From positions 1 to 29,211 of the IMG/VR virus record IMGVR_UViG_3300046820_001017: a stretch of 29,211 bases of DNA; one strand, given 5' to 3'. The notes under the pieces are model-generated. The model saw only the letters and a list, made by a program, of their open reading frames with translations, made no database searches and had not been told where the DNA came from. Position numbers and translations under genes: made by a program. This document shows, in pieces, positions 3,767 through 23,181 of the stretch. Every line of letters starts with the position of its first letter. The first letter of the stretch is position 1. This DNA comes from a virus.

Positions 3767-3787
3767 ACTACCGACCTTTCGTTATTA

Positions 3788-4192: not shown

Positions 4193-4195
4193 AGG

Positions 4196-5362: not shown

Positions 5363-5385
5363 AGACTCTCCTAATAAAATTATTC

Positions 5386-5399: not shown

Positions 5400-5407
5400 A
5401 CTCACGT

Positions 5408-5436
5408 AGTATAACACACTATAAAAGACTTGTCAA
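5408..5436 (-). promoter_or_regulatory. consensus sigma-70 promoter for BMP-led operon
   Basis: On the minus strand: TTGACA (5436-5431), 17-bp spacer, TATACT (5413-5408). It begins 5 bases after the T-tract of the preceding terminator, so the unit downstream is insulated. No other promoter is visible down to the terminator at 1275. Confidence 0.88.
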
Positions 5437-5440
5437 ATAT

Positions 5441-5473
5441 AAAAAAAAATCGCCCCCTACTTTCGTAGGGGGC
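5441..5473 (-). terminator. strong rho-independent terminator after holin gene
   Basis: Minus strand GCCCCCTAC-GAAA-GTAGGGGGC, a perfect 9-bp stem (5473-5465 with 5460-5452), followed by GA and nine T residues. It ends the leftward TerS-TerL-portal-lysis operon, with the holin stop 6 bases upstream. Confidence 0.92.
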
Positions 5474-5478
5474 TTTGG

Positions 5479-6268: not shown

Positions 6269-6269
6269 G

Positions 6270-6986
6270 TTACTCCACAAATTTTTTTGTTGCTAACAAG
6301 GGCTCATAAATATAGCCGAGTGAATTCACAAATCTCCAACGATTGTTCTCATCTATTGACTCGCCAAAAACGACGTCGCCATTGAAGGAGAACACAGTCG
6401 CGTCTTGTTTAATAGTTGCTAGTATTTTGCTGTCCCGTGTTGGACTCTCTCGAATGTTTGCATTGCTTGTAGCTTTATAAATTGAGTATGGTCGGTGAAA
6501 GTTTTTTGCCCAGTAGTTAAACCCGTCATCGGAAATACCAGATGGGTCTATTTTTCTTCCGGGAGGTATAGCAATTCCTCTGTGTGTAACTTTTTCTAGC
6601 CTAATATACAAGCGAGCTAGTTCCGTAATTGCATCCCACATTTCGCCTGTCCACACACCTTCTGAGGGGCTGAAGTGAACTTCAACCCCAATAGCATGTG
6701 GATTACCATACTTTGTAATATCTTTTGTTTTACCAGTATGCCACGCCATAAATTTCATCGGGTCTAGCATCTGTACAATATCACCGGTTTTACTAACAAT
6801 ATAGTGAGCACTAACATCAGGAGAATTAATAAGATAGTTTAGTTCAGCATTGAAAGAACTACCGGCTTTTCCGTTTGTTGTATGAATTACTAGACTGCTG
6901 TACGGTAATGTCTGGCTCCTCGGGCTGTATCCCGTCCCCGGTGGGAGTTTGTTGTTCTTCTGGTATTCTGGTTTGATTGTTATCAT
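6270..6986 (-). CDS. endolysin: N-acetylmuramoyl-L-alanine amidase with SH3b domain
   Basis: A 238-residue protein from ATG 6986. Amidase_2/T7-lysozyme-like domain at about 30-160: H35 in SLVIHTTNG, AHYIVSKTGDIVQ strand pair, H83 in AWHTG, VEVH, and THRGIAIPPGRKIDPSG with zinc ligands H135/D147 and K145. It cleaves the amide between muramic acid and the peptide stem. Residues about 168-232 (SNANIRESPTRDSKI, WRFVNSLGYIYEPLL) form a bacterial SH3 wall-binding domain. No signal peptide, so it depends on the holin. The first 128 bases overlap the portal gene's 3' end in another frame; I rejected longer in-frame extensions because no homology precedes the PYSSLVIH strand. Confidence 0.88.
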   Translation of the reverse strand: MITIKPEYQKNNKLPPGTGYSPRSQTLPYSSLVIHTTNGKAGSSFNAELNYLINSPDVSAHYIVSKTGDIVQMLDPMKFMAWHTGKTKDITKYGNPHAIGVEVHFSPSEGVWTGEMWDAITELARLYIRLEKVTHRGIAIPPGRKIDPSGISDDGFNYWAKNFHRPYSIYKATSNANIRESPTRDSKILATIKQDATVFSFNGDVVFGESIDENNRWRFVNSLGYIYEPLLATKKFVE

Positions 6987-8343
6987 CTGTTGGCAGTTCC
7001 TCAACTTCTGTATCAATTTTTTCTTGCTCATCTTCGTAGGTTGTTCCGTACAGTTGAGCAATTGTATCCTTACTAATCGCGCCAATTTGCTGAGCTTGAA
7101 TTGCAAGTTGTGTCAAAGCTGTAATATCTTGCAATGCAATTGGGCTAAAAAATGGTTTTGGGTACCAAGAAAATCCATTCTTATCTGCAAGTTCTTTGTA
7201 GAATCCTTCAATCCAAGCAAGGATTGAATCACGAATATCATTAAGTGTGGAAATTGGACCCAGGCTTGCCATCTTATTATCAGTAGAGTTACTTCGAAGT
7301 GTTTCACCAACCGCTAGAATACGGGGGAAACCAAGTGCGAGAAAGATGTCTGCGTTTGGCTCAACATATTTTGCCTCGTTCAAAAGTGCTTCTACAGGTG
7401 GAGTTACCCAGGCTACTTCAACAGTATGGTTTGTGAAGAAGTTGAAAACTCTGTCACCCGTAACAGATGCCGTAGCAAGCACGGACTCTGTCGCTTTAAT
7501 ATCATCATCAGTTGCTGGGAATTTATCGGAACCTACTTTAACTTGACGTAATAATTCAGATGCTCGGGCTGCAATACTTCTATCCATAAGCTTTAAGTAA
7601 TACTTATGCTGCAAAGCAAAAAGAGCATTCTGAAGATATGGTTTTGGGTAATCCTTGTAAGAACGCAACTTACGATAGATTGGGCGTGCGTTTGGAAGAG
7701 GAAAGATTCTTTGCCCTTTCTCTACAGCCCGCACATATGCTGGGTACTCACGCACCAGCGAAACGTAGCCGTCTCTATCGTCAGAGCCGTCCTTACGCTT
7801 ACCTTTAGTAAGAATGAAATCAATCTCTTCTTGAGGTATGCGAATGTAGACAGCGCGCTCCATACCTACAGGCTTTTTGCGGAGTTCGATAAATTCAACA
7901 TTACGAATCCAGAAATTAGTGGGAAACTGAACACGCTTTCTTCCAAGACTTTCATCAACTTTATTACCCATAATTGTCTCAAATGTCATTTCTGGGACAA
8001 CCATGCCGTGAATAAAGTAGTCAAGCGCCATTGATTTGAGGTACGGTTGAATATACTCGGCAACTGCGTCAAAATATTTCACAGAATTATCTGGATTTGT
8101 TCTATCTCGGCGATTGCGTAGCTTTGTTACTGCCATATCAACCATGCGCTCAATAACTGTTCCAACAATGGTGTCTGTTTCATAAAAGTAGCGACAGTAC
8201 TTAATATATTCATGATACGTGTATTCACGCGAATTATCAAATGGTGTTACAGTTGGGTCATAATATCCAGCTATATACTGGCCATTTACCATGAATGGGG
8301 TAGGCGCAATAGAGGCTACTGCTTTGGCTAATCCTGATTCCAT
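6859..8343 (-). CDS. portal protein
   Basis: A 494-residue protein directly downstream of TerL (its ATG abuts the TerL stop). It has portal-like features: N-terminal YKYCRYFYETDTIVGTVIERMVDM helix region, a central stem and wing part, then ALGFPRILAVGE, followed by LGPISTLNDIRDSILAWIE and QLAIQAQQIGAISKDTIAQL, the crown-side helices typical of large portals. The dodecameric portal forms the head vertex through which DNA is packaged. The C-terminal 50 residues are Glu/Pro/Gln-rich and disordered, and their DNA also encodes the endolysin N-terminus. Motif similarity is moderate, but position and length fit well. Confidence 0.82.
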   Translation of the reverse strand: MESGLAKAVASIAPTPFMVNGQYIAGYYDPTVTPFDNSREYTYHEYIKYCRYFYETDTIVGTVIERMVDMAVTKLRNRRDRTNPDNSVKYFDAVAEYIQPYLKSMALDYFIHGMVVPEMTFETIMGNKVDESLGRKRVQFPTNFWIRNVEFIELRKKPVGMERAVYIRIPQEEIDFILTKGKRKDGSDDRDGYVSLVREYPAYVRAVEKGQRIFPLPNARPIYRKLRSYKDYPKPYLQNALFALQHKYYLKLMDRSIAARASELLRQVKVGSDKFPATDDDIKATESVLATASVTGDRVFNFFTNHTVEVAWVTPPVEALLNEAKYVEPNADIFLALGFPRILAVGETLRSNSTDNKMASLGPISTLNDIRDSILAWIEGFYKELADKNGFSWYPKPFFSPIALQDITALTQLAIQAQQIGAISKDTIAQLYGTTYEDEQEKIDTEVEELPTDDNNQTRIPEEQQTPTGDGIQPEEPDITVQQSSNSYNKRKSR

Positions 8344-10953
8344 TTATCTCTCCGTAATTTTAATTGCGGGTCTTCCTAATTTTACTGATTCTACAATTGT
8401 TTGTGGTTTAGAGCGTTGCCCATATATAAAACAAAGATAACTAGCAAAAATGTGGTCATCGTCGGATGCACCGGAACCCCGTTCGCTCATAATAAAGTAA
8501 TTATCTGAGCCAGTAATTCTTTTTTGTCTCGTAAGACGTTCTAGCTGAGAAATACCCTCAACATCAATTTCTGAAAAAATAAGCTGGCCTTCAGTAATAA
8601 TCCGTGCCAGTTCTTTAGAGCCCCATGAACGAAAGACTTCAGTGAGCTCAGAATCGTCGTCTGTTCTCCCAACTGACACGCGCTCATTAAAAAGTACGCT
8701 AACCACTCGTTCAGAGTATTTGGTTCCTGCATAATCTTCTCTCGATAGTAAGGATTGAACTATTCCTGCTCCACCGCCACCAGCTCCAACGTCAATAGAT
8801 ATTTTTGATGGATTATAGAACTTTGTTAAGTAGTGAATAATTCGCTCTTGTTCAGGGTAATCAATCTTTGTAAGACGATGTCTGATAAAGGTTCTATAAA
8901 GCCCGTCTTTCACACCGATGATGTGAATGAGAGTTGGGTCAGTGAAGCCTGTGTCTATGCTAAATACAATTGTGTCTTGGTCTTTGATTGGCTGTAACTT
9001 AAGTACATCTTCAAACTTTCTTCCCTTTGACTTATCGTTACCAGAGTAACGAAACGAGTAAAACTCAAACGGTTCTGTTGTAAACGCGTCTCTCGGGATA
9101 ACCTGAAATGAAGCTGAGCCGTGTTTGCCAAGGACAAGCTGTTGAAAAATATCTTCTTCAATACCCCCATATTTACGTAAACTATCATTCCAGTCGTCTA
9201 GTGTAAAATATGGATTGTTTGGTGCTGGTATTCTGTACTTTTTAAACTTTGGTCTACGGATGTCAAGGTCAAATAAAGCGCTGTTTCTTAGACCGTTTGG
9301 CACACCAACGTAGATTTCCTGAACTTTATCTTCCCATGTATTGAGTGTGGGTTGTAGTTGATTAAACGCAGTCATTGAAAACAACTGCATTTCGTCACCG
9401 GTAATCTTTGGGATATGCAGACCAACCAAGTTATTACTTTCACGGGAGCCTGCGATACGCGCGTAAAACCGGTGGTTTCTATCACCAAATTTAAAGTCAA
9501 GAGTTCCTTTAGACCTATTCACATTATTACCGAGAAAGTCTTTTAGCATCGGCGATGTTGTGAATTTTAAAATAACCCTATCCAAAAGAGGGGTTAACTG
9601 ATTGGTATTTGGTGTTGTTAGTAACTGCTCTGAAGTTTTTGGAAACTCAATGTCGTTATTTAAGATTTGATATGTAAGCAAGTCTTCCACAATAACAGAG
9701 TTATGAACAACAATGTAATCACTAATATATGTTTCATCTGTATACACGTGAACTGCGTATGTTTGGATGTTGTAATTTCGGGTTGTTCTTTTTGTGATTG
9801 GTTCCCAGCGAACATTAGCCGCCGGCTCAACCAAATCAATTTTTGGACTACTCACCTGAACTCCAGGTAACTTAAACGTAGACCAGAATCTATGAGCGTT
9901 TTCTGGGTCTAACGTTTCAATCAACCAGATTGTATCATCAAACTTGTAATTATGTTTTTCTTCACGTCTTTTATTTGTTGGCGTAAGCTTGGTATTTATT
10001 CCAAAATACATTAATAATTCTTGAAAGTCTGTTGCATATTTCTCATTAAACACCTCAATAGAGACACTATTGAGACTATGCTTTCCATATTGAGCAAAGG
10101 CTGCCTCTAGGAATACTTTAATATTATCTAATTTTTCTGTTTTTAAGTACTCTAGGTTTGCAATTCTCCGCTCTCTCTTTCCGAGTGTTCCTGTTTCCCT
10201 GCGTAACTGCATAAGGTAGTGGCGTGTTTGACCAGTTTTTATTCTTTCTAAATTGAATACACCATTATCCTCTCGTATTACAAGATACGTGTTGTCAGCA
10301 ATAAACCGAAGTTCTTCAGCTATTTTAGAGAATCGTGGTTTAATTCCCATATACCCTTTAAGGCGGATACCGTTTAGAGAATCATATCCCATTAGTCTAA
10401 GCTCAAACCATGAAAAACTATCTTTTGTACAGTGATTTGTCGGTAGGTTATTTGCTACACCGATAAGGTCACCGACTTTTAAATCACCTGCAACAACAAA
10501 CCCATTAGGTGTAAGAATTGGGTGATTAAACGTGCATTCGACTGAGTTCCCGGAACTCGTAAAGAACTTACTTACTTTAGACCACTTATCACGCGTAATA
10601 ACAGCGCGTCGTTGTCGCCAGTTTCCATGAATATCGTAGGCATAAGTTAGAAACGCTTTTCCCTCTAAGTGAAGTAGGTTGCTAATTGTTTTGAAGCCAT
10701 CCGCAGTATAAATCTTTGAGCTTCCTGGCTGACATTTACCAATTGAACGTCCGCCAGTAATTACGATATGTTTATTTTGGTCAGTAAGAATTTCTCTTTG
10801 ATATGGCCTATGATGAAAATCGTCAGCAGGCCAATTATTTTTATTCATATCCCCATTATTTGTAGACCGAAGAAATTCAGATAGCCACACAGGGTCTTCA
10901 ATAATTTCAAGGAGGGCTAACTCGGCATCATCAATTTTCTTCTGCAACGCCAT
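8344..10953 (-). CDS. terminase large subunit (TerL) precursor containing an intein
   Basis: An 869-residue precursor; removal of the 345-residue intein leaves a 524-residue terminase, the usual size. Rejoined exteins give Walker A GGRSIGK|S (residues 67-73 plus S419). Walker B is HIPKITGDEM (D520, E521). The RNase H-like nuclease has D667 in VFSIDTGFTD, D721 in SIDVGAGGGG and the DDD cluster 831-833. TerL is the ATP-driven DNA-packaging motor and cuts concatemers at the portal. It overlaps the upstream TerS-like gene by 23 bases and its stop touches the portal start. Because the intein splits the P-loop, packaging ATPase activity requires splicing. Confidence 0.93.
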   Translation of the reverse strand: MALQKKIDDAELALLEIIEDPVWLSEFLRSTNNGDMNKNNWPADDFHHRPYQREILTDQNKHIVITGGRSIGKCQPGSSKIYTADGFKTISNLLHLEGKAFLTYAYDIHGNWRQRRAVITRDKWSKVSKFFTSSGNSVECTFNHPILTPNGFVVAGDLKVGDLIGVANNLPTNHCTKDSFSWFELRLMGYDSLNGIRLKGYMGIKPRFSKIAEELRFIADNTYLVIREDNGVFNLERIKTGQTRHYLMQLRRETGTLGKRERRIANLEYLKTEKLDNIKVFLEAAFAQYGKHSLNSVSIEVFNEKYATDFQELLMYFGINTKLTPTNKRREEKHNYKFDDTIWLIETLDPENAHRFWSTFKLPGVQVSSPKIDLVEPAANVRWEPITKRTTRNYNIQTYAVHVYTDETYISDYIVVHNSVIVEDLLTYQILNNDIEFPKTSEQLLTTPNTNQLTPLLDRVILKFTTSPMLKDFLGNNVNRSKGTLDFKFGDRNHRFYARIAGSRESNNLVGLHIPKITGDEMQLFSMTAFNQLQPTLNTWEDKVQEIYVGVPNGLRNSALFDLDIRRPKFKKYRIPAPNNPYFTLDDWNDSLRKYGGIEEDIFQQLVLGKHGSASFQVIPRDAFTTEPFEFYSFRYSGNDKSKGRKFEDVLKLQPIKDQDTIVFSIDTGFTDPTLIHIIGVKDGLYRTFIRHRLTKIDYPEQERIIHYLTKFYNPSKISIDVGAGGGGAGIVQSLLSREDYAGTKYSERVVSVLFNERVSVGRTDDDSELTEVFRSWGSKELARIITEGQLIFSEIDVEGISQLERLTRQKRITGSDNYFIMSERGSGASDDDHIFASYLCFIYGQRSKPQTIVESVKLGRPAIKITER
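9700..10734 (-). mobile_element. intein in TerL P-loop with degenerate LAGLIDADG domain
   Basis: Residues 74-418 of TerL. It begins with C1 (CQPGSSKIYTADGF, block A), has block B ECTFNHPILTPNGF (T68, N70, H71), and ends YISDYIVVHN before Ser+1 (block G), so all splicing residues are present. Between them lies a LAGLIDADG-like domain: LMGYDSLNG (114-122) and FLEAAFAQYG (208-217), followed by the DFQELLMYFGI helix. The catalytic acidic positions are N121 and Y216, so homing activity is probably lost while splicing is kept. Ser+1 doubles as the Walker A serine. Confidence 0.92.
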
Positions 10954-11581
10954 CGTCTTGCTCCTCTATAATAAATACCTCGTCTTCACTCTGTGTTTGT
11001 GGCTGGTCTTCCGATTTACTTGGCTGTACGACTTCATATAGATACTGCTTTCTCCATTTGTAATCTTTAATGTCAAAGAAGATTCCTTCTGCCTCTGCTT
11101 TTCGCGAAGCTATGACTCTCTTACTACACTGACTACATTGAGTCTCAAAGTGAAAAGCTGTATGCTCCATAACTGGGGAAAATCTAGCTAATAATATTTT
11201 GCAGTCGGGGCAGTATACCTTTACTAGACGTTTCTCTAAGAAGTTTTGTGCGGTTACTTTTAGGTTCGTAATATATGCCCCAATACTGTCACTAGCCTCA
11301 GACTTTCTTGTCTTACGGTCAAGTGCAAGAGCACGTTCAATTTGTAAATTTCTTTCAATAAGGTCGCGCATCGCGTTACCCATTTTTTGAATTGCTTCAA
11401 TATTACCAAGTGCGCCATCTTCTGTCATTATAAGAAGCTCTGATTGAAGTCTTTCTACAATGACCTGATTATTAATCAGCATATCAAGATTGGCGCGGTC
11501 ATTTGGAGAATTGAGTGTTTCCAAGTCGTACTTATTGCTATAATCAGCAAGAATTTCTTGGAACCTTGATTGTTTTGCCAT
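10931..11581 (-). CDS. putative terminase small subunit (zinc-ribbon protein)
   Basis: A 216-residue protein immediately upstream of TerL, overlapping it by 23 bases. N-terminal 1-95 is helical (VIVERLQSELLIM, AMRDLIERNLQIERAL), as in small-terminase oligomerisation domains. Residues 124-152 hold a zinc ribbon, C124-P-D-C127 and C149-S-Q-C152. The C-terminal 35 residues are very acidic. TerS proteins recognise the packaging site and stimulate TerL. ATG 11581 has GGGGAGA 4 bases upstream. The call rests mainly on position; a zinc ribbon is not usual in classical TerS, so it may be a different packaging accessory. Confidence 0.55.
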   Translation of the reverse strand: MAKQSRFQEILADYSNKYDLETLNSPNDRANLDMLINNQVIVERLQSELLIMTEDGALGNIEAIQKMGNAMRDLIERNLQIERALALDRKTRKSEASDSIGAYITNLKVTAQNFLEKRLVKVYCPDCKILLARFSPVMEHTAFHFETQCSQCSKRVIASRKAEAEGIFFDIKDYKWRKQYLYEVVQPSKSEDQPQTQSEDEVFIIEEQDDGVAEEN

Positions 11582-11607
11582 TATTCTCCCCTTTAACTAA
11601 AATAAAC

Positions 11608-11665
11608 GGGGTAGTCTACGAGGAATTTTCACTAAACTATAGTGAAACCCATAGTAAACTACCCC
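11608..11665 (-). other. nested hairpin in TerS leader
   Basis: Two perfect 8-bp inverted repeats, one inside the other: outer GGGGTAGT/ACTACCCC (11608-11615 with 11658-11665) and inner TTTCACTA/TAGTGAAA (11627-11634 with 11640-11647, 5-base loop). It lies between the late-promoter candidate and the TerS start, so the mRNA would begin with this structure. It could protect the 5' end, be a protein-binding operator, or act as a weak terminator for the reductase gene. Confidence 0.65.
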
Positions 11666-11694
11666 TCTATTAATATACCCTATTTTTGTGTCAG
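11660..11694 (-). promoter_or_regulatory. candidate late promoter, copy 1 (TerS-TerL-portal operon)
   Basis: Minus strand: CTGACACAAAA (11694-11684), 13 bases, ATAGAGGGGTA (11670-11660). The same two blocks with a 12-base gap occur on the + strand at 17865-17898 before the other virion operon. CTGACA is one base from the sigma-70 -35, and A/TATAGA sits about 17 bases downstream, a poor -10. The first block overlaps the reductase stop codon. Confidence 0.65.
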
Positions 11695-13871
11695 CGTACT
11701 GGGCACGCCCCGCCTACGCAATCAGGGTCAAACTCGTCTTCTTCTGTCTGTACAGACTCTCTACGAAGAAGCTCTGTGGTAATCATTTCCCAAGAAATAT
11801 GTTCAATGTCTGACTTGCGGATTTCATACTCGGCACGGTCAATCTCTTCGTAAGGCATCAACGGATACGCTCCCGTGTACTTAGGTAAGAAAGAAACACC
11901 GATGTAATCATCCCAATTTTCGAGAATTGCTTTAATCAGTCCATCAACTTCATCGGGATTAAAAGTAATCGTGATAGAAGTGTTGTGGTCAGTCCAGTAC
12001 TTTTGCAAAGCTAGATACCGGTTGAGTTGAGCAACAGCTGTTTCCTCGTTGGCTGACTTCTTCGCAGAAGTTTGAATTGGAAACTCAATAACCCAAGTCT
12101 GCGCTTTGTCAAGCACTTGCATACGCTCAAAATTACTGAGCTTACGAAATTCTTCGGGGCGCATTGTATTTGCTTCTGGATACACAGGGTATCCAACCGC
12201 TAACATTGTCTTAGCCAATGGGTCAAAGCTGGAAATACGAACGCGGCGAATATAGTATGGTGCGTAAGAAGCGTGTGCTCCCGAAGATACTGTAGGAAGC
12301 TGGGCGATTGTACCACTTGGCTTAACCGTAGTAACAAGAAGAGGGGTTGGAATACGCATTTCTGAGGCATATACTTCAGCTTCTTGGTTAGCTACTTCAC
12401 GAGCAAGGTCAAGGAAATATTTCAACTTAATATCTTCATATTTACCACCATCAAGATGACTTGCATGCAAAATAGGCACAATCGAATTTTCGTTCGTTGT
12501 ATCAACGTCCAAAGCGTCCATTGCTTCGACATACCCAGTAAAAGATACACCAGTTAGTCGGTCACGCTTCTGAACTTCATCCCAATGCGGAAGCTCTAAA
12601 GTGACATTAGTCATGCGTAATCCAACACGCGTGGCAAGCTTAATGGCTTGTGAGAACTTATACATATCAAGAACTTTCAAACCATTGACATCAATAACGT
12701 AGGCAGCTACGTTAATTTCACTTAGATTACAGACACCGTTATCAGCCAGTAGAATTTCTGCACAAGGATTTGTTCCGGCATAGTATGGTCTACGCACCGA
12801 AGCGGCTTGAGCATTAATAAAACCGGGTTCTCCGTTGTTGATAACACGATTAAAGATTTCACGCAATTGTTCAGCTGTCGGCTTTTTTGTGAAGTAGACC
12901 GAGTTATTACTCATTGACCGGTATGTCAGCTCTGACTTTGTTGGGTCAGTCCAAAGGTCGACCTTTGCATCCATAACTGCTTTATCATCAATAGAAAACA
13001 GTGTAATCTCACTTGAGCGCCTAACACCACCAACAACTACACAAGAACCAATAATGTTCATAATATCCATTGCCTGGACAGTATCCATAGCAGAACCGCC
13101 ACGACAAACAACTTTGTGAATTTGTTTAAACATAGTACGAAGTGCAGTGTGCCCAGAGGCTCGTCCACCAAACGTCTTTAACAACTCTCCCTGAGGGCGA
13201 ACACTATCGTAGTTAATCATAATAGACTCTACGGGTTCTTGACTAGTAAGCGCGTCAAAGTAGATGCGCAGTGCATCAACCCAGCCTTCTTTTGAATCTC
13301 CGACAACAATATACACGCTATCTGACTCTCGATAGACTTGAGTTTGTTCAATACGGTCTTCTTTCTTTTCTTTCGGATGATACGGCTTGTGTGCTACAAC
13401 AACTCTTGAGTTAATTTTAGGGAGCTGTGCAACATCCTCCGGTAGGATACGAAAACCAACCCCTGTGCCGAGCATCATTAGATAGAAGGCATCAACAAAC
13501 GCTTCCAAACTATCGACAACAGTAAAGGAACAATTGAAGTTACTTAGTGGAAATTTATTTGCGGCCTCAGTACCTCCAATCCACATAGTACGCCCAGCCG
13601 TAAATAGACGGAGGTTAAACATTTCTTCAAACAAGTTTTGCGCCTCAACCTGCAATTCGTTAAATGTAGCCGGTCCCTTATACAGACCCATGCTGTACTC
13701 AACAACTCTACGACATGTTTCTTTCCAATGCTCGCGACGTCCTTTATTAGCATCAAAGCGAGAGTATGTTCTTAGATAAACAAACTGACCGAGGATACTA
13801 TTCCATTTTGGATTATCTGGGTATTTATCCAAAAACGTATTCCACAAAAAATTAAGAGGCTTCAAACTCAT
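11691..13871 (-). CDS. nrdJ: adenosylcobalamin-dependent ribonucleoside-triphosphate reductase (class II, monomeric)
   Basis: A 726-residue enzyme that reduces ribonucleoside triphosphates to deoxy forms, feeding phage DNA synthesis. Diagnostic features: SNFNCSFTV with the first redox Cys, NPCAEI with the thiyl-radical Cys and catalytic Glu, GVCNLSEIN with the partner Cys 11 residues on (spacing as C408/C419 of the Lactobacillus leichmannii enzyme), and a C-terminal CVGGACPVR swinging-arm dithiol. KPSGTIAQLPTVSSGAH matches the phosphate-binding loop. Being B12-dependent it needs no oxygen and no small subunit. Start ATG 13871 is chosen because AGGAG precedes it; an in-frame ATG at 13889 lacks a site. 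No inserted intein is seen. Confidence 0.95.
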   Translation of the reverse strand: MSLKPLNFLWNTFLDKYPDNPKWNSILGQFVYLRTYSRFDANKGRREHWKETCRRVVEYSMGLYKGPATFNELQVEAQNLFEEMFNLRLFTAGRTMWIGGTEAANKFPLSNFNCSFTVVDSLEAFVDAFYLMMLGTGVGFRILPEDVAQLPKINSRVVVAHKPYHPKEKKEDRIEQTQVYRESDSVYIVVGDSKEGWVDALRIYFDALTSQEPVESIMINYDSVRPQGELLKTFGGRASGHTALRTMFKQIHKVVCRGGSAMDTVQAMDIMNIIGSCVVVGGVRRSSEITLFSIDDKAVMDAKVDLWTDPTKSELTYRSMSNNSVYFTKKPTAEQLREIFNRVINNGEPGFINAQAASVRRPYYAGTNPCAEILLADNGVCNLSEINVAAYVIDVNGLKVLDMYKFSQAIKLATRVGLRMTNVTLELPHWDEVQKRDRLTGVSFTGYVEAMDALDVDTTNENSIVPILHASHLDGGKYEDIKLKYFLDLAREVANQEAEVYASEMRIPTPLLVTTVKPSGTIAQLPTVSSGAHASYAPYYIRRVRISSFDPLAKTMLAVGYPVYPEANTMRPEEFRKLSNFERMQVLDKAQTWVIEFPIQTSAKKSANEETAVAQLNRYLALQKYWTDHNTSITITFNPDEVDGLIKAILENWDDYIGVSFLPKYTGAYPLMPYEEIDRAEYEIRKSDIEHISWEMITTELLRRESVQTEEDEFDPDCVGGACPVR

Positions 13872-14163
13872 TCTGTTCTCCTGTTTCATTTATTTCAACG
13901 GATGGGCGAGCGAGGTCTACAAAAGTAAAGTCACTCAGCATCCGCTTTGTTTCATCTAAGTAGCGAAGATTATTTACGTATAGCACCATGCTATTATGAA
14001 CTTTCTGTCTAAATACTAAGGGCTCTTCAAGAGCATATGGTATTGACATAGCATAAGTTTGACAGTCTTCTGTATTTTGAGCTGATACAGAAAATCTGAT
14101 AGAAAATGAGCAGGTGTCTTCACTGAACACCCACTCATTAATTGAAAATTTGTGCTTTTGCAT
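13852..14163 (-). CDS. small protein of unknown function in nucleotide operon
   Basis: A 103-residue protein whose start overlaps the MazG stop (TAATG) and whose 3' end overlaps the reductase start and supplies its ribosome-binding site. Predicted beta-rich N-terminal half (SFSIRFSVSAQN) and an acidic tail. No motif is recognised. Tight coupling between MazG and the reductase suggests, but does not show, a nucleotide-related role. Confidence 0.6.
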   Translation of the reverse strand: MQKHKFSINEWVFSEDTCSFSIRFSVSAQNTEDCQTYAMSIPYALEEPLVFRQKVHNSMVLYVNNLRYLDETKRMLSDFTFVDLARPSVEINETGEQNEFEAS

Positions 14164-14522
14164 TAGCGTTTATCTCCGCTACCCTTAATTACACCCCGGT
14201 TTGACCGGTCGGTTAACTTAGCGTAATTAGCGTAAAAGATATCACTGATAGTAACTCCAAGGTCATCTGCAACTGCGGTGACATACCATAGAACATCGCC
14301 AAGCTCTGAAATCAAGTCTTCAAAGCGCTCTGGAGTTAATTGACCGGCATCATCGCGCATAATCTTTTTTAATTTACCAGCAACCTCACCAGCCTCATTC
14401 GCTAGCCCAAGAATAGGGTATACAAGAGAATATTCTCGGTCATATACCTTTGTTGAACGAACAAACATTTGATATTTATCGAGACTTTCAAGCTTCTCTC
14501 CATCAATAATATTTTCTTCCAT
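14163..14522 (-). CDS. mazG: MazG-like nucleotide pyrophosphohydrolase
   Basis: A 119-residue all-alpha NTP-PPase of MazG type. Helix 2 carries GLANEAGEVAGKLKK with E43 and E46, and helix 3 carries ELGDVLWYVTAVADDLG with E73 and D76: the magnesium-binding E-x2-E / E-x2-D set. The family hydrolyses NTPs or dNTPs to monophosphates; phage copies have been linked to dNTP pool control or to lowering (p)ppGpp. The start overlaps the upstream stop (TAATG). Single-domain length is normal for phage MazG. Confidence 0.88.
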   Translation of the reverse strand: MEENIIDGEKLESLDKYQMFVRSTKVYDREYSLVYPILGLANEAGEVAGKLKKIMRDDAGQLTPERFEDLISELGDVLWYVTAVADDLGVTISDIFYANYAKLTDRSNRGVIKGSGDKR

Positions 14523-15031
14523 TACTTACCCCACTTACCCTTTCTTAAAATCATAGTAATTATAGCATAGTTTGCCAAATCTAGCAAGGTGTCATCAATA
14601 GATTCATTCTTCGGGTCTTTCAACGCAGAGAATTTACCCGTACCAATATCAAATCCCATAAGATTCATTAGGCGAGCCGTCTTATCCCATAGGCGGGTGA
14701 TAGCTCCAAGTTCACCAGTACCACGCATATTCCACGGAGAATAATCCTCCATTTTCATTTTATACGTATCAAGCATGTTTTGAATAATATCTTCAAATGC
14801 GGCGGTCTGCTCAGGGTACCTCTCTGTTTCGACGTAAGCAGTTTTCCGGGAACCGTAGTTAGCGTAGTTGGTATCGTACTCTCGGTCTAGTCTGGCGGCT
14901 GCTTTATATACTTCTTGAAGACCATCTTCCATATCTTGAGGTGGTCCCCAAACTCTTCCAGCTTCTTTCATAATCTCAGACAGATTCAGTTTAGTTCCGC
15001 CCCAATTATCCTCAACACCATAATCACTCAT
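14522..15031 (-). CDS. DUF1599 / nucleotide-modification-associated domain 1 protein
   Basis: A 169-residue protein. The C-terminal half (about 95-165) reads MEDYSPWNMRGTGELG, ITRLWDKTARLMNLM and NESIDDTLLDLANYAII, the signature of the DUF1599/Nmad1 family, a relative of the all-alpha NTP pyrophosphatases often found with DNA-modification genes. The biochemical role is not established. The N-terminal 90 residues (MSDYGVEDNWGG, YGSRKTAYVETERYP) are unfamiliar. GAGGT precedes ATG 15031, which overlaps the methyltransferase stop by 8 bases, so the two are coupled. Confidence 0.75.
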   Translation of the reverse strand: MSDYGVEDNWGGTKLNLSEIMKEAGRVWGPPQDMEDGLQEVYKAAARLDREYDTNYANYGSRKTAYVETERYPEQTAAFEDIIQNMLDTYKMKMEDYSPWNMRGTGELGAITRLWDKTARLMNLMGFDIGTGKFSALKDPKNESIDDTLLDLANYAIITMILRKGKWGK

Positions 15032-16013
15032 TATTTTTTACCTCACATTCTATAATCTGCTCACCTAACCATTTGATAACAGGGACAGAGACTGCGTTAC
15101 CAAGTTGTTTATAACGCTCGGTCATGCTACATCCAGCAGTCCAATTATCCGGAAATCCTTGTAGACGTTCACACTCTACTGGTGTTAATCTACGTAAACC
15201 GACGAGTGGTATACTATTTCCACCCGTCCCCATTCTAGCTAAAAGCGTTGGTGAGAGTGTCTGGTCCTTACAAATTCTCACTGGATTATCTGCATGACAC
15301 ATTTCCCAAATAATGCTTTCGACTGTCGTGGTTGACAGCGTGTGTGTCTTTTCTTTTATAACAGTCATCATTGGACTTTGATTATTTATTGCGTGTGCGA
15401 TTGTTCTAACGCTAACTTTATCTTGTCCAACATCACCTGCGGTATTGGGCGCTTCTTTCTCTCCGCCCTCTGTATCAGACCGCGCAGAGCTTTCGTGCTT
15501 AAAGAGTAACCCGCAGGCACGTTTGTTTCCAAAACTTGCGACAATAAACACTCTTTTTCTACGCTGGGCAAGCCCGAATCGGCTAGAGTCAAGTACTCTC
15601 CATCCCACGCCATACCCGCGTTTTGCCAACCATTGAATGATTGTGGCAAAATCTCTTCCTCCTGCTGAAGTGAGTAGTCCCGGAACGTTTTCAATAATAA
15701 CCCACTTTGGTTCAACGTCATTAATAACTCTTTTAAACTCAAACCAGAGCCCAGAGCGTTCCCCCGCGAGTCCAGCTCGTTTCCCTGAGCGACTAACGTC
15801 TTGACAGGGAAATCCTCCGCATATAACATCAAAGTCTCCTTTACTGAAGTTTAAATCTTTAACATCAGCGTATAATACAGCATTTGGAAAATTGCGCTTA
15901 AGTATCTGTTGCGCCTTTTTATCTATCTCGCAAGTGGCTTTAATTTCAAACCCGGCGCGCTCTAATCCAAGGTCAAATCCACCAATACCAGAAAATAAGC
16001 TAAGTACTTTCAT
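15024..16013 (-). CDS. DNA (cytosine-5) methyltransferase
   Basis: A 329-residue enzyme with all core C5-MTase motifs: I SLFSGIGGFDLG (SAM binding), IV GGFPCQDVSRSG (C70 nucleophile), VI ENVPG (E108), VIII QRRKRVF (150-156), IX RLTPVECERLQGFPDNW, and X QLGNAVSVPV. The target-recognition region is short (about 165-265), so the enzyme is likely sequence-specific; its site cannot be read from sequence. No restriction partner is adjacent, so it probably protects phage DNA from host restriction or is part of base modification with the neighbouring Nmad1 protein. ATG 16013 follows GAGGTGA. Confidence 0.95.
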   Translation of the reverse strand: MKVLSLFSGIGGFDLGLERAGFEIKATCEIDKKAQQILKRNFPNAVLYADVKDLNFSKGDFDVICGGFPCQDVSRSGKRAGLAGERSGLWFEFKRVINDVEPKWVIIENVPGLLTSAGGRDFATIIQWLAKRGYGVGWRVLDSSRFGLAQRRKRVFIVASFGNKRACGLLFKHESSARSDTEGGEKEAPNTAGDVGQDKVSVRTIAHAINNQSPMMTVIKEKTHTLSTTTVESIIWEMCHADNPVRICKDQTLSPTLLARMGTGGNSIPLVGLRRLTPVECERLQGFPDNWTAGCSMTERYKQLGNAVSVPVIKWLGEQIIECEVKNNE

Positions 16014-16019
16014 TCAACT

Positions 16020-16346
16020 TCACCTCAGCAAAAATATTTTGTAATATTTACTCGTAGTATACTCATACCCATGCGACATAAAATCGTTTAGAATATCATC
16101 TACTAAAATGTCTGTAAATATCATATCCCTATATCTGTCACTCCAGCGTGACATACTCATACTTATAAAGTTAGTGTCATAATTAAAAAGAATATACAGT
16201 TCTTCAAACACTTCTGCAAAAATACTATTCTTTTTATTAAGTACTTCACGTCTATCGCTTAGTGGCGCTTTATTAGCCTTTATATCGAAAAGATATAGTA
16301 TAAGTATCATGTTTGAAAAATACACTTCATTAGATACATAACGCAT
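16020..16346 (-). CDS. small protein of unknown function, first gene of leftward operon
   Basis: A 108-residue protein (MRYVSNEVYFSN...), rich in Tyr, Phe, Asp and Ile, mostly helical. I use ATG 16346 because AAGGAGAA lies 5 bases upstream; a longer frame to 16394 would run through the promoter at 16366-16394. It is the first gene after the consensus promoter and therefore likely early expressed. No family is recognised. Confidence 0.6.
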   Translation of the reverse strand: MRYVSNEVYFSNMILILYLFDIKANKAPLSDRREVLNKKNSIFAEVFEELYILFNYDTNFISMSMSRWSDRYRDMIFTDILVDDILNDFMSHGYEYTTSKYYKIFLLR

Positions 16347-16365
16347 AAATTTCTCCTTCTCGCTT

Positions 16366-16394
16366 ATTATAACAGTTTCTAATACGCGTGTCAA
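16366..16394 (-). promoter_or_regulatory. perfect consensus sigma-70 promoter, leftward
   Basis: TTGACA (16394-16389), 17-bp spacer, TATAAT (16371-16366) on the minus strand. Transcription would start near 16359, giving a leader of only about a dozen bases before ATG 16346. Probably drives the methyltransferase, MazG and reductase genes. Confidence 0.9.
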
Positions 16395-16502
16395 GTACCC
16401 GAGGTCTTATTATAATTTACACGCTAAAATATAATAAGCATAGTTCTATAGTTCTTATATTATATATTTTATAATAAAGAATATAATAGTACCTAGGCTC
16501 CC

Positions 16503-16518
16503 TGGGTCCCTTAACCCA
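16503..16518. promoter_or_regulatory. operator-like inverted repeat at leftward start site
   Basis: TGGGT-N6-ACCCA, directly downstream of the -10 at 16519-16524 and spanning the expected transcription start. Similar GGGT...ACCC symmetry is found at the rightward start site (16638-16653). Confidence 0.5.
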
Positions 16519-16547
16519 AGTATACACGATTTATTTCCATTTGTCAA
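16519..16547 (-). promoter_or_regulatory. second leftward sigma-70 promoter
   Basis: TTGACA (16547-16542), 17-bp spacer, TATACT (16524-16519) on the minus strand. It would give a long leader through the AT-rich stretch before reaching the same operon as the 16366-16394 promoter. Confidence 0.82.
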
Positions 16548-16553
16548 ATCCTA

Positions 16554-16589
16554 ACTCGGAAGTATTTTATTTCATAGTATATTCCGAGT
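16554..16589. promoter_or_regulatory. inverted repeat between divergent promoters
   Basis: ACTCGGAA (16554-16561) and TTCCGAGT (16582-16589) are exact inverted copies, with looser outer halves AATCC/GGATT (16547-16551 and 16596-16600). It sits just upstream of both the second leftward and the rightward promoters, a natural place for a shared activator or repressor. Confidence 0.6.
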
Positions 16590-16602
16590 TGTCAAGGATT
16601 AC

Positions 16603-16631
16603 TTGACAGATTGTTTTAATTGTAGTATAAT
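16603..16631 (+). promoter_or_regulatory. perfect consensus sigma-70 promoter, rightward
   Basis: TTGACA (16603-16608), 17-bp spacer, TATAAT (16626-16631). The start would be near 16638, about 38 bases before ATG 16676. Drives the zinc-finger/HTH and PP-loop genes. Confidence 0.9.
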
Positions 16632-16637
16632 TTATTC

Positions 16638-16653
16638 GGGTAATAGTATACCC
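16638..16653. promoter_or_regulatory. operator-like inverted repeat at rightward start site
   Basis: GGGTA-N6-TACCC begins at the expected +1 of the rightward promoter. A repressor bound here would block transcription. It resembles the repeat at 16503-16518 in size and GGGT/ACCC ends. Confidence 0.5.
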
Positions 16654-16675
16654 AATTCTATGTCAGGAGATTTAT

Positions 16676-17068
16676 ATGAATTATTTATGTTGCGTCTGTG
16701 ACAACAGGGCTGCTAAAGATAGTAAGTTTTGTAAAGATTGTGTTGTTATTTATACGGAAGTAGAAAATGAACCGTGGTTCATTGACCTTTGTAAGCTTAT
16801 GAAAAAGCAGAGATTAATTGATAATATGGAGCGTTACACTCTTTATAAAAGTAATACACAAGGGGTTGTTCCACTTAAAACGCCGCGTTCATCTGGAAGA
16901 CCGAAGACTTCTATTGTTATTAAAGAACTTATTAAAATTTTAAAAAAAGATGACAAAACTCTATCTGTTAGAGAGATTGAAGAAATTTGTAAAAATTCAA
17001 AAATTAAGGTATCACGAGAGACAATACGCAGAGTTCTTAATGAGGTAAATAATGACGAGAGTGTTTAG
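16676..17068 (+). CDS. zinc-finger / helix-turn-helix protein, putative transcription regulator
   Basis: A 130-residue protein. Residues 5-22 hold a C-x2-C...C-x2-C zinc finger (C5 or C6, C8, C19, C22). A basic linker contains SGRPKT, like an AT-hook core. Residues about 93-126 (SVREIEEICKNSKI, VSRETIRRVLNEV) form a helix-turn-helix of winged type. It is the first rightward gene, directly after a consensus promoter with an operator-like repeat, and AGGAG precedes its ATG. A DNA-binding regulator of the divergent region or of late genes is the best guess; no named family is recognised. Confidence 0.7.
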   Translation: MNYLCCVCDNRAAKDSKFCKDCVVIYTEVENEPWFIDLCKLMKKQRLIDNMERYTLYKSNTQGVVPLKTPRSSGRPKTSIVIKELIKILKKDDKTLSVREIEEICKNSKIKVSRETIRRVLNEVNNDESV

Positions 17069-17861
17069 TTATGGCGGTGGCGTTCAATCAAATGCAGCAC
17101 TAGTCCTTAGTGCACAGAAAAAATTACCATACACGCACTTCATATTTGCTAACGTCGGTAATGATACCGAAAATCCCGAAACTTTAGAGTATGTTGAAAA
17201 GTACGCAAAGCCATACGCAGAAAAACACGGTTTGTTCATAATAGAAATTCAAAAATCAAGCAATTCAGAAGAAAAAAGCACTTTATACAAAGAGCTTCTT
17301 AGTTCAGAGCGTTCTGTAACCATTCCTATGTTTATTGACGGAGTTCCTATACGTAGAGAATGTACTTCAAACTGGAAAATAGCTGTTGTTGAAAAATTTA
17401 TGAGAGAATACGCCGGGGCCAAGAGAAAAAGAAAAAGACCAATTGGCATCGGGATAAGTTTAGATGAGTTTAAAAGAATGCGCACTAACTCGGATGACCG
17501 AGTTACAATAATGGAATACCCGCTTATTGACCTACGGCTAACACGAGAAGATTGTGTTGAACTTATACTAGAAGCCGGTCTCCCTGTACCTCCGAAATCA
17601 TCCTGCTGGTTCTGTCCATATAAGAAAATTAGCGAGTGGAAAAATTTAAAAAATGAAAAACCAGAATTATTTTTAAAAGCTATCGAACTAGAGAAAAAAT
17701 TATCAAAACAAATATATGAAAATTCAACCGCATTACTTACAGGTAAAAAAGTATTTTTAGAAGAAGCAGTTGCTGAGTATGAAGCAAAAGTAATTAAGTT
17801 AGAAAATTATTCAGAAAGTGATGACCCTGAAAATTGTGAATCTGGTTTTTGCATGACATAA
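17052..17861 (+). CDS. PP-loop ATPase, phage PAPS-reductase-like protein
   Basis: A 269-residue protein of the adenine-nucleotide alpha-hydrolase fold. The PP-loop is SYGGGVQSNAALVL (6-19), the phage variant of SGGxDS, followed by FIFANVGNDTENPETLEYV. Later Cys pairs occur: SSCWFCPYK and a C-terminal CESGFCMT. The family includes PAPS reductases, DndC and tRNA-modifying enzymes, which adenylate a substrate; phage members are usually labelled phosphoadenosine phosphosulfate reductase, but their real substrate is unknown. The gene overlaps the zinc-finger gene by 17 bases and its stop is followed at once by the late-promoter candidate. Confidence 0.78.
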   Translation: MTRVFSYGGGVQSNAALVLSAQKKLPYTHFIFANVGNDTENPETLEYVEKYAKPYAEKHGLFIIEIQKSSNSEEKSTLYKELLSSERSVTIPMFIDGVPIRRECTSNWKIAVVEKFMREYAGAKRKRKRPIGIGISLDEFKRMRTNSDDRVTIMEYPLIDLRLTREDCVELILEAGLPVPPKSSCWFCPYKKISEWKNLKNEKPELFLKAIELEKKLSKQIYENSTALLTGKKVFLEEAVAEYEAKVIKLENYSESDDPENCESGFCMT

Positions 17862-17864
17862 TGT

Positions 17865-17898
17865 CTGACACAAAATATGATATACATATAGAGGGGTA
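17865..17898 (+). promoter_or_regulatory. candidate late promoter, copy 2 (capsid/tail operon)
   Basis: CTGACACAAAA (17865-17875), 12 bases, ATAGAGGGGTA (17888-17898), matching the element at 11660-11694 on the other strand. It lies in the 68-base gap before the first capsid-region gene, whose ATG 17930 follows a strong AGGAGG. The spacer contains a further TATA-rich stretch. Confidence 0.65.
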
Positions 17899-17929
17899 AA
17901 TTTATTTAATTTATTTTTTAGGAGGCCCT

Positions 17930-18718
17930 ATGGGAATAATTGTCCCCAATTCCTCGCCAATTACATTGGCTGCGGATGAAATTAACTCAGAGTATTATCA
18001 AAAATTTATTATCTCTGATGGAGCGGGTAACTCGTACTACTCAGGAAATCCGCTTCCCACTACGTTTACTGTTTCTGGATATGACTCAACAGCTACTACG
18101 TATCAAGGTTCATACGCACCAATTGGTGGCGTATATATCAATGATTTAACCGGCACTGACTTTACCGAAATGATTGACGGCGAGTCAGCTACTGTCCGAA
18201 TGAATAATCGTCGCGCAATTATGACAGCATCAGATGGTCAAGTTACTACACTTGTGGAAGCACAGCCAAATAACTACCATGATGTTGTTGTTGCAAGCGG
18301 AGCATCCTTTAACGGAGTAACAACTCCAGCATATAGCAGTTTCTTTGATTATACGAGTCAACAATTAACGCGCTACGTATATATACCGCTTTCTAAATCT
18401 GGATGGAAAAGATTAAATCTTTTCGTAAAGCATAATCTTGTCAAAGACTCAGATTCTCTAGCGGCTGACCTAGGCGTTAACTTATTCGCAGACTTTGGTC
18501 AATTTACAAATGATTTTCCAATAGTCAATGACACAATAAGCGGTACAGCTGGTTCAATGGTAGGGAGAGTTTATATGTGTACAGCACCTACAAATCAAAG
18601 TAATAATGTTATGCACATTCCTGAATTTGATTCTCCTCTAGCAGGGGTTCTTATTTCATTGACTAATACAGAAGATGTTACAGGTAATATTGAAATATAC
18701 GCATCTAAATCAGCTTAG
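17930..18718 (+). CDS. putative virion structural protein
   Basis: A 262-residue protein rich in Ser, Thr, Asn, Gly and Tyr, with alternating beta strands (TFTVSGYDSTATTYQGSY, LTRYVYIPLSKSGWKRLNLF) and no signal peptide or membrane span. The composition is typical of capsid decoration, head-fibre or receptor-binding beta proteins. It is the first gene of the rightward virion operon, with AGGAGG 5-6 bases before ATG and the protease-scaffold gene 8 bases after. No family is recognised; a structural role is inferred from composition and position. Confidence 0.6.
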   Translation: MGIIVPNSSPITLAADEINSEYYQKFIISDGAGNSYYSGNPLPTTFTVSGYDSTATTYQGSYAPIGGVYINDLTGTDFTEMIDGESATVRMNNRRAIMTASDGQVTTLVEAQPNNYHDVVVASGASFNGVTTPAYSSFFDYTSQQLTRYVYIPLSKSGWKRLNLFVKHNLVKDSDSLAADLGVNLFADFGQFTNDFPIVNDTISGTAGSMVGRVYMCTAPTNQSNNVMHIPEFDSPLAGVLISLTNTEDVTGNIEIYASKSA

Positions 18719-18726
18719 GAGATTTA

Positions 18727-21094: not shown

Positions 21095-21646
21095 ATGGCA
21101 GTAGTCGCAATTCCTAGGCATAGTGCACAAGCAGTAGCTGGCAGACATGATATAATAGAAGGTCGTGGTGTTCGGTACACTACCAAGGGCGCTGGTCATG
21201 ATGACTTGCACCAGGTAGAGTACCCAACACATAAAACGCCTGGATATGTCTGGGTTGCTATTTGTCCCCCTGATAATTTTCCAGTTCCCATCCCGGACGG
21301 ATTATATTTGGCTACATATAAAAGTACGTATAATATCAAAGACGCTACTATTTACACAAACCCATCACAAACTGGAACTGAATACCTAACACATCTATCA
21401 GAGATGAATAGCCCTACACTCGTAGCCAGTCACTCTCTTGTTGCTTTGTATAAAGGAATAATTGGAATTACGCCAGAATGTTATACTGCAAATAAGGCAC
21501 AAACACTCGTTCCGGGCATGGAACTTGTTATGAACCCGAATGGTATATTTACTCATCGTGAAAATAATGACCCCGCCAACTTAGTTGTCGGTCGAGTAGA
21601 GTTTTATCAGATTCAAACTGGTTTACTCTATATAAATGTATTTTAA
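21095..21646 (+). CDS. putative capsid decoration/minor head protein, paralogue 1
   Basis: A 183-residue protein sharing an ordered pattern with the next gene: MAV start, IxEGRxV, VxxxPPDNFPxP, YKxTYNxxxxxxYxNPS, LVALxxGxIGIT, and VGxVxxYxxxTxxLYxxxx at the end. Mostly beta strands, no membrane or signal segment. The pair lies between protease and major capsid protein, where decoration or head-stabilising proteins are usual. The role is inferred from position. The two copies are well diverged, indicating an old duplication. Confidence 0.6.
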   Translation: MAVVAIPRHSAQAVAGRHDIIEGRGVRYTTKGAGHDDLHQVEYPTHKTPGYVWVAICPPDNFPVPIPDGLYLATYKSTYNIKDATIYTNPSQTGTEYLTHLSEMNSPTLVASHSLVALYKGIIGITPECYTANKAQTLVPGMELVMNPNGIFTHRENNDPANLVVGRVEFYQIQTGLLYINVF

Positions 21647-21688: not shown

Positions 21689-22216
21689 ATGGCTGTACTA
21701 GTAACTACAATCCGCTCACGTCAGGGCGTTGCTGCTACCACAATTGTGGAAGGGCGCGCAGTTGTTGTGGGTGCATCTGGCGTTCGGAATGACCTTCCTA
21801 ACGTGACTTATGCCGCTGCGAACACCACTCAGGGTGTGTACGTGGCTTTCTTCCCACCTGATGACTTCCCGCGGCCAACTCTCCGCGACATGTACACTAC
21901 ACCGTATAAGCAGACCTATAATGTTAACAACACGGCTCTTTACGGTAATCCTAGCCTGACACAAACAGTTGACCTAGTTCCTCGTTCGCAGTGGAAAGAG
22001 CCTAGCGCTTACAGTGGTGAACTAGTTGCTCTTCACTGGGGTAAGATTGGCATTACTTCGGGATGTTTCATCTCAAGCGCTGATATCAAAGTCCCGGGTA
22101 ACAAAGTTAAAGTTTCTGCAAGCGGTCTATTCGAATATACTGCTTCAAACTATATTGTTGGTGAAGTTGACCGCTATGATGCAATGACCGAAACCCTATA
22201 TCTTATCCTTTACTAA
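21689..22216 (+). CDS. putative capsid decoration/minor head protein, paralogue 2
   Basis: A 175-residue paralogue of the preceding gene (IVEGRAVVV, FFPPDDFPRPT, YKQTYNVNNTALYGNPS, LVALHWGKIGITSGC, IVGEVDRYDAMTETLYLILY). Its codons look more GC-rich and biased than most of the genome, like those of the adjacent major capsid gene, suggesting high expression, as for an abundant virion component. GAGGT lies upstream of ATG 21689. Confidence 0.62.
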   Translation: MAVLVTTIRSRQGVAATTIVEGRAVVVGASGVRNDLPNVTYAAANTTQGVYVAFFPPDDFPRPTLRDMYTTPYKQTYNVNNTALYGNPSLTQTVDLVPRSQWKEPSAYSGELVALHWGKIGITSGCFISSADIKVPGNKVKVSASGLFEYTASNYIVGEVDRYDAMTETLYLILY

Positions 22217-22236
22217 ACTTGGAGAATAAATTAATA

Positions 22237-23181
22237 ATGGAACAGAATGAACTTTTGAAGGCTGTAGCAGAGCAGGCTAAAACTGCTGGCACAAGCCCGA
22301 CCGGTAAGTCAGCGTTTGCTGAAACAATTATCAATATGGTTGAGCCAAATCACCTAAGCTTGGACTTGTTCAGCACGTTCATGCCAACGCGACAGGCTGC
22401 TCTGGGCGACACTATTATCCGTAGAGTACGTAGAGGCCGTTATGGAATCCAGACAATGGTTCCTGGAACGAACCACTTGGTAAGCCAGCCAACCGATGTG
22501 CAGGATTACCACACGTATGTGTTTGATCGCCTGATTGGTGGTGCTCGCGAAAGCGTTTGGAATCTTCGCAACGGTGATTTGACCACAATTGACCGTATGC
22601 GTCAGCAACTTCAGTGGGACCTTACCGATAATCTTATCGCTAAGGTTTTTGCGCTGTTGGGTAGCGTCTGGAATGGCACGGACACGCCAAATAACTACGC
22701 AACCACAACTAACCTAACCTACACCATTCTTGACAACATGATTGAAAACCTATTGCTCACCGCGGGTGATATCAAGGCAATCATCGGAACAAGAACCGCA
22801 CTACGTAACATCTACAACTTTGCTGGATGGAGAGAATGGAACTACATGAGTGGTTCTGGCGCAATCGCCTACCCTGTTACGCCAAAGTTGATTGAATATC
22901 TGGATACCAATAAGGTATCGACTTATAAGGGTATTCCTTTGATTGAATTGCCACAGGTCTTCAAGAACCAACTTCCTGACTTCCGTGAGAAGCTTATCCC
23001 TGACAATCAGATTATCTTGGTCGGTGCTAACGCCGGTGAGATTTTGATGTACGGTGGGGTTGAGTACCAAGACTACACAGACATGACAATTCAGCCTGCT
23101 GATTACATCCTCAACGCTTGGATGAGCTATGGTATGATTGTTGATATGCCTGAGAACATCGGCGTCATTAAGCTTACCTAA
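22237..23181 (+). CDS. major capsid protein (HK97 fold)
   Basis: A 314-residue protein in the standard position after protease/scaffold. Features of HK97-type capsids of this size: N-terminal helix (LLKAVAEQAKTAG), then DTIIRRVRRGRYG (E-loop region), long spine helix region (RMRQQLQWDLTDNLIAKVF), A-domain strands, IPLIELPQ, and DNQIILVGANAGEILMYGG with the closing strands NIGVIKLT. The start is ATG 22237; GGAG is 12 bases upstream, and the in-frame TTG 22219 that overlaps it is unlikely. Codon use is biased as in highly expressed genes. No delta domain of the HK97 type is obvious, consistent with separate scaffold. Confidence 0.82.
   Translation: MEQNELLKAVAEQAKTAGTSPTGKSAFAETIINMVEPNHLSLDLFSTFMPTRQAALGDTIIRRVRRGRYGIQTMVPGTNHLVSQPTDVQDYHTYVFDRLIGGARESVWNLRNGDLTTIDRMRQQLQWDLTDNLIAKVFALLGSVWNGTDTPNNYATTTNLTYTILDNMIENLLLTAGDIKAIIGTRTALRNIYNFAGWREWNYMSGSGAIAYPVTPKLIEYLDTNKVSTYKGIPLIELPQVFKNQLPDFREKLIPDNQIILVGANAGEILMYGGVEYQDYTDMTIQPADYILNAWMSYGMIVDMPENIGVIKLT

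Follow-up and report, generated by a model that had tools for sequence, protein, structure and literature searches.

The DNA considered in this study is a 29.2-kb virus fragment from IMG/VR, called here the window, by which I mean the whole stretch of 29,211 nt. It belongs to a family of uncultured phages known solely from metagenomes. Its virion genes are split into two divergently transcribed operons, and ahead of each lies a copy of the same bipartite, promoter-like element. The minus-strand copy falls between nrdJ (encoding a B12-dependent ribonucleotide reductase) and the terS-terL-portal-endolysin genes, and the plus-strand copy has a PAPS-reductase-like gene on one side and the head/tail genes on the other. 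The two copies and their parts, with functional names as proposed here, are as follows (clade 1 is one of two clades of relatives considered below).

11660..11694, minus strand: putative late-promoter element before the TerS-TerL-portal-lysis operon; 35 nt, gap of 13, exact match
11684..11694, minus strand: proposed regulator box CTGACACAAAA, about -29 to -19 from the likely start; the best-conserved block, covarying with the genome's other copy
11672..11677, minus strand: presumed -10 hexamer TATATT; TATAnT-like here in most clade-1 elements, with N6 to the start of the hairpin
11608..11665, minus strand: predicted 5'-terminal hairpin of the TerS-operon mRNA, with the probable +1 at G11665
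17865..17898, plus strand: putative late-promoter element before the head/tail operon; 34 nt, gap of 12, exact match
17881..17886, plus strand: presumed -10 hexamer TATACA, with the probable +1 at G17893; aligns with TATAAT/TATACT/TATATA of relatives

The element and its neighborhood

A first-pass annotation of this DNA had described the element as two identical blocks flanking a gap. The pattern CTGACACAAAA-N10..16-ATAGAGGGGTA was counted in the window against a background of 100 dinucleotide shuffles, and the motif proves real: it occurs exactly twice, and in none of the shuffles. Taken singly, with one or two mismatches allowed, the blocks appear in the window at chance-level frequency, and the signal therefore lies in their pairing. 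The gap, previously treated as plain spacer, turns out to contain a TATA hexamer that had been missed (TATATT at 11677-11672 on the minus strand, TATACA at 17881-17886 on the plus strand), and in most relatives that hexamer is TATAAT, TATATT or TATACT. The unit is thus TGACA-N10/11-TATAnT-N6-G. From the end of the minus-strand element to the ATG of TerS (11581) there are 78 nt, and from the end of the plus-strand element to the first virion ATG (17930) there are 31 nt. The TGA within the minus-strand CTGACA is the stop codon of nrdJ.

The surrounding genes and promoters that matter to the argument are these (HTH stands for helix-turn-helix, and V1 for the first gene of the head/tail operon).

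6859..8343, minus strand: portal protein (phrog_2739, E 5e-8)
8344..10953, minus strand: terminase large subunit (TerL) with intein (PF17289 and, for the intein, PF14890)
10931..11581, minus strand: putative terminase small subunit (TerS), first gene of its operon, directly before TerL; no family match
16366..16394, minus strand: canonical promoter, 12/12 match, serving the early genes that run leftward (methylase, MazG, nrdJ)
16603..16631, plus strand: canonical promoter of the HTH gene, TTGACA-N17-TATAAT, 12/12 match
16638..16653, plus strand: hairpin GGGTAATAGTATACCC at +1 of the HTH mRNA, the start-site calibrator
16676..17068, plus strand: zinc-ribbon and HTH protein of 130 aa that may read the TGACA box; its gene immediately precedes the V1 operon in both clades
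17930..18718, plus strand: V1; conserved in both clades
22219..23181, plus strand: probable HK97-fold major capsid protein (NF042927, E 3.7e-6, under the curated cut-off)

TerL, portal, HK97-type capsid and endolysin could be recognized in these operons, though no gene could be recognized as the protease that had also been named. In the window the PAPS-reductase-like gene stands between the HTH gene and V1, and in relatives the element lies directly before V1. No Rfam family matched in the window. A strong intrinsic terminator (CCCCCATG..CATGGGGG plus a U-tract) is found at 25879-25899, within the virion operon.

Early-type promoters, earlier put at four, number five when counted as sites with at least 11 of 12 matches to the sigma-70 consensus within positions 1-20000. 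By the same threshold, the virion blocks of six records together hold just 7 canonical promoters in 156 kb (sense strand), compared with 99 in the 241 kb that lie outside those blocks (both strands), a gap that the late elements would fill.

Three further observations concern other parts of the window. The genes at 2727-3059 and 3077-3406, within an array of small leftward genes, are tandem paralogues, 41% identical. Those at 21095-21646 and 21689-22216, before the capsid gene, look like paralogues as well, cross-matching at about 36% to each other's homologues in relatives. Finally, 4196-5362 encodes a BMP-family lipoprotein, conserved in many relatives, whose gene has a canonical promoter to itself (minus strand, 5436-5408).

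Conservation, paired change and start geometry

Relatives were gathered by queries with portal, capsid, HTH and TerS sequences. Those retrieved share the divergent gene order of the window, and the full-length ones measure 72-78 kb. A second clade (clade 2) has TerS proteins that are 54-61% identical. TerL and the capsid protein served as protein queries against the GenBank phage collection and gave no match, and hence no cultured relative could be used. A scan of bacterial genomes gave a single distant relative of TerS (44% identity), on a contig (L090) binned to a metagenome-assembled genome of a TM6 bacterium; it is possibly a hint of the host, possibly a case of mis-binning, and too weak for naming a host. 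Searches of papers for the motif itself gave no match in the literature.

The element was sought in all 2.9 million IMG/VR contigs by means of a pattern that specifies about 18-19 bases. There were 21 stretches with a hit, 19 of them in the family of the window phage, where the sites are the nrdJ/terS junction, the junction of the HTH gene with the first virion gene, or an intron. The remaining two (L029 and L033) are contigs without family genes, about the number estimated for chance. Clade-1 contigs that cover the junctions have the element at both, intact or diverged, with the consensus YTGACACAAAA-ataggg-TATAnT-aNTAGA-Gg and a distance from CTGACA to the hexamer of 11 bases in 17 elements and 10 in 3. 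Clade 2 keeps TGACA-N10-hexamer-NNTAG at both junctions. Several boxes on the V1 side are exactly TTGACA. In full-length relatives the exact pattern is found twice in three genomes and once in G005, whose second copy has diverged, while G003 keeps a box that is shared by its two sites and different from the rest. No additional copies lie inside genes in the motif-bearing full-length relatives, and the element is retained in relatives with the same gene order, so that on both counts the first-pass annotation stands.

Coding constraint does not explain this persistence. In three relatives (L108, L110 and L118) the nrdJ stop precedes TGACA, which is nevertheless retained and so must be more than a stop codon; the V1-side copy, which in most other relatives overlaps the last codons of the HTH gene (LTQK-stop), is non-coding in the window and in L011.

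The two boxes also change in lockstep. Where TGACACAAAA has been altered in a lineage, both copies in that genome are altered alike: to TGTATAAAAAC at both sites in L005, to TGTCACAAAAG at both sites in L017, and to TGACCC/TGACCT-AAAAG in L011. Summed mismatches within genomes come to 12, as compared to 25.9 in shuffled pairings (P 0.00035), by a permutation test whose weight is lessened by its disregard of phylogeny and by the manual alignment of the elements. Shared ancestry alone is insufficient here, since the same change is needed at two loci, and paired change is what one trans-acting reader would be expected to produce.

A third copy of the element is found in two contigs (L025 and L018). 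It lies in nrdJ, inside a group I intron (Rfam RF00028, 66 bits), and precedes an open reading frame (ORF) for a GIY-YIG endonuclease. A sister intron in L017, at the same site and of similar sequence, lacks the endonuclease and also the block, about 60-70 bp long, in which the element is found. Intron endonucleases of phage T4 are driven by middle or late promoters inside their introns (PMC2988022), and the corresponding position of the intron copy lends independent support to a promoter function. If so, a homing endonuclease intron carries the same switch as the virion operons. GIY-YIG homing endonucleases are encountered elsewhere in the family as well: those of L005:5358-6048 and L017:4057-4807 end in a C-terminal copy of the GRP-HTH domain of the candidate regulator, one of them being free-standing, with the HTH gene on one side and the virion operon on the other, and the second lying in nrdJ.

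Where transcription would begin may be judged from the leaders. In clade 1 the mRNA of the HTH gene, whose promoter equivalents in the other clade-1 genomes match at 9-12 of 12 positions, would begin with a GGGTA...TACCC hairpin that starts 6 nt after the -10 in 10 of 11 genomes and 7 nt after it in L017. In nearly all clade-1 leaders the predicted terS hairpin begins at the equivalent of G11665 or at the base after it, and its stem has compensatory changes (4 cells changed on both sides, a value reached in 1 of 500 shuffles). Since the spacing of -10 to hairpin is the same at the HTH promoter and at the terS element, TATAnT is taken as the -10, and the starts at G11665 and G17893 are inferred from this calibrated geometry, which gives a start near the GGGG only indirect support. 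The box would then span about -29 to -19, in the place of a -35. A search for a -35 at a spacing of 15-19 nt gave a best match of 1-3 of 6 positions in 21 of 22 elements (2 of 6 in the plus-strand element of the window). In clade 2 the terS hairpin is supported by 35 cells changed on both sides versus 12.3 in shuffles; V1 leaders have no strong hairpin. Hairpins at the 5' terminus, seen in the HTH and terS leaders, may be a general trait of mRNAs in this family. A start right after the hexamer, suggested by the clade-2 hairpins, was considered and is contradicted for clade 1 by the HTH-promoter calibration.

Proposed regulation and its alternatives

At the level of sequence, I regard as established what the element consists of, its conservation, the lockstep change of its boxes, the scarcity of promoters in virion blocks and the covariation in the hairpins. 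The interpretation that I favor, with a probability of roughly 0.6, is that the two elements are a pair of late promoters read by the host sigma factor together with a phage regulator. Each would consist of a host-type -10 (TATAnT, at -12 to -7) followed by the conserved discriminator NNTAGA, transcription starting at the next G, with the 11-bp box CTGACACAAAA replacing the -35; a phage-encoded protein would bind the box, and host RNA polymerase could then use the promoter. The leftward promoter would serve the packaging, portal and lysis proteins and the rightward one the head and tail proteins, and a single regulator would turn on both halves together. The element had been noted as non-canonical and in need of either a phage activator or an altered RNA polymerase. 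An activator fits, and the altered polymerase is not needed, because the elements have a host-type -10.

The likeliest regulator is the zinc-ribbon/HTH protein (16676-17068), which would be made early, from a consensus host promoter, and is encoded upstream of its own proposed target. It has an HTH_32-like domain in 12 of 12 members. The recognition helix reads SRET or SRES in nearly all of them and ARET in L011; SIGT is confined to L005, the lineage with the boxes TGTATAAAAAC. In a fold search, the structure model of the HTH matched only generic HTH and paired domains, a PAX paired domain scoring highest (Z 9.2). A second candidate from the family core is a protein of 120 aa, its gene outside the window; every full-length relative tested encodes it, as does clade 2. 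Its model resembles sigma region 4 (3hug, TM 0.71), with a best Z of 8.0, within the range that unrelated helical models can reach; Foldseek gave no significant E-value, and a profile search of PDB sequences gave no sigma. The likeness is suggestive only. Searches for sigma70 regions 2 and 4 gave only matches below the cut-off, the single one for region 2 (E 0.011) in the ORF at 14522-15031 of the window. A T7-like RNA polymerase (PF00940) was matched in none of ten records, in a search whose control also matched nowhere.

Several observations weigh against the favored interpretation. The covariation of HTH and box concerns one lineage, and L011 and L017 have altered boxes although their helices are almost unchanged. 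The terS hairpin of clade 2 begins immediately downstream of the hexamer, 6 nt earlier than in clade 1, and some V1 genes of that clade have a Shine-Dalgarno sequence that overlaps the discriminator, so that the start there may be further upstream. The clade-2 hexamers GACATT and TTCATT would make a poor -10. Lastly, 18 of 22 elements have a TAnnnT at +4 to +6 and the intron copy has one at +2, which would suit a pause of the Q type.

That pause belongs to the strongest alternative, to which I give perhaps one chance in four: that the box is the loading site of an antiterminator of the Q/AlpA/GafZ type. Polymerase would start at the TATA -10 and pause at TAnnnT, the protein bound at TGACA would join it, and terminators in the virion operons would be read through. 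In phage 21 and AlpA the binding element lies between the -35 and -10, with a -10-like pause site in the initial transcript, and the HTH of 21Q resembles sigma region 4, as does the model of the 120-aa core protein. There is an intrinsic terminator inside the virion operon (25879-25899), and the terS hairpins of the window and several clade-1 genomes have U-rich tails. However, Q-type promoters keep a -35, which the elements here do not have; the clade-2 hairpins are without a U-tract; TAnnnT is readily found in T-rich leaders; and there was no match to Antiterm_Q or Antiterm (PF06530, PF03589), families of Q proteins being highly diverse.

A combination of the two mechanisms is rather improbable, though it deserves mention. 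The zinc-ribbon/HTH protein would read TGACA at about -26, in the spacer and not at -35, while the free-standing sigma-region-4-like protein of the family core displaced region 4 of the host sigma, so that control of initiation and loading for antitermination shared one element. If true, this would be a new mode of takeover of host polymerase for late genes.

It is less probable still that a phage-encoded or modified sigma factor reads TTGACA as a -35 and NNTAGA as a -10, the TATA hexamer being incidental. The spacing of TGACA to NTAGA in aligned elements is indeed a normal 16-17 bp, TAGA is the best-conserved right-hand part in clade 1, and some V1-side boxes match TTGACA precisely. On that reading, however, transcription would start within the leader hairpin of clade 1 and, at several clade-2 V1 genes, downstream of the Shine-Dalgarno sequence, and NNTAGA was dropped as a -10 for this reason; moreover, no sigma region 2 reached the cut-off, and the conserved TATAAT would be left unexplained. 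I consider it quite unlikely that the element is an operator, or a packaging or replication site, rather than a promoter. It does adjoin terS, and pac sites can lie beside terS, but the element is directional, has a -10-like hexamer and is always just upstream of an operon, and the idea was given up because copies also precede V1 and the intron endonuclease gene. Chance, or a by-product of coding for the nrdJ stop and the HTH protein's C-terminus, may be set aside, despite the overlap of many V1-side boxes with LTQK-stop and the frequent use of the terS-side TGA as the nrdJ stop, given the non-coding V1-side copies in the window and L011, the persistence of TGACA in L108, L110 and L118, and the confinement of 19 of 21 hits to the family.

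Comparison with known systems

With these proposals an uncultured family gains a defined late promoter, two candidate regulators and proposed start sites. They also illustrate how virion genes that are divided between two divergent operons could be switched on together.

The favored mechanism, activation of initiation by a phage DNA-binding protein, has its closest analogy in the middle promoters of T4 (sigma appropriation), in which sigma still reads the -10 while a phage box stands in for the -35 (PMC2988021). The elements here are similar in having a host-type -10 (in most clade-1 elements, weakly so in clade 2), no -35 and a phage-specific box, and in that an early phage DNA-binding protein is proposed to make the promoter usable. 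They differ in spacing and in sequence. The MotA box of T4, TGCTTtA, lies 12 +/- 1 bp from the -10 and is centered at -30 (PMC2988021), whereas here CTGACA lies 10-11 bp from the -10, in a box at about -29 to -19 that reads TGACACAAAA and ends 5-6 bp from the -10. The elements here would also control virion genes. The MotCF domain was matched in none of ten records, in a search with a weak control and no T4 genome included. I do not class the elements as MotA promoters, since the spacing differs and no C-terminal domain of MotA was matched. The intron copy recalls the homing endonucleases in T4 introns in that a promoter of the phage's middle or late class lies inside a group I intron (PMC2988022); the case here differs in that the promoter is the family's own element, in nrdJ, known from two contigs and accompanied by an element-less sister intron.

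In the Q, AlpA and GafZ systems the box lies between -35 and -10, a -10-like pause sequence occurs in the initial transcript, and the targets are late genes or gene transfer agent (GTA) gene clusters (PMC6606751, PMC9371919, PMC11150451). The elements here resemble them in a proposed regulator box embedded just upstream of the presumed -10, a possible -10-like sequence after +1, and the probable control of late genes, and differ in lacking a -35, a Q family match and a terminator common to all leaders. The position of the box, together with the missing -35, thus makes this family a natural comparison of MotA-like activation with Q-like loading.

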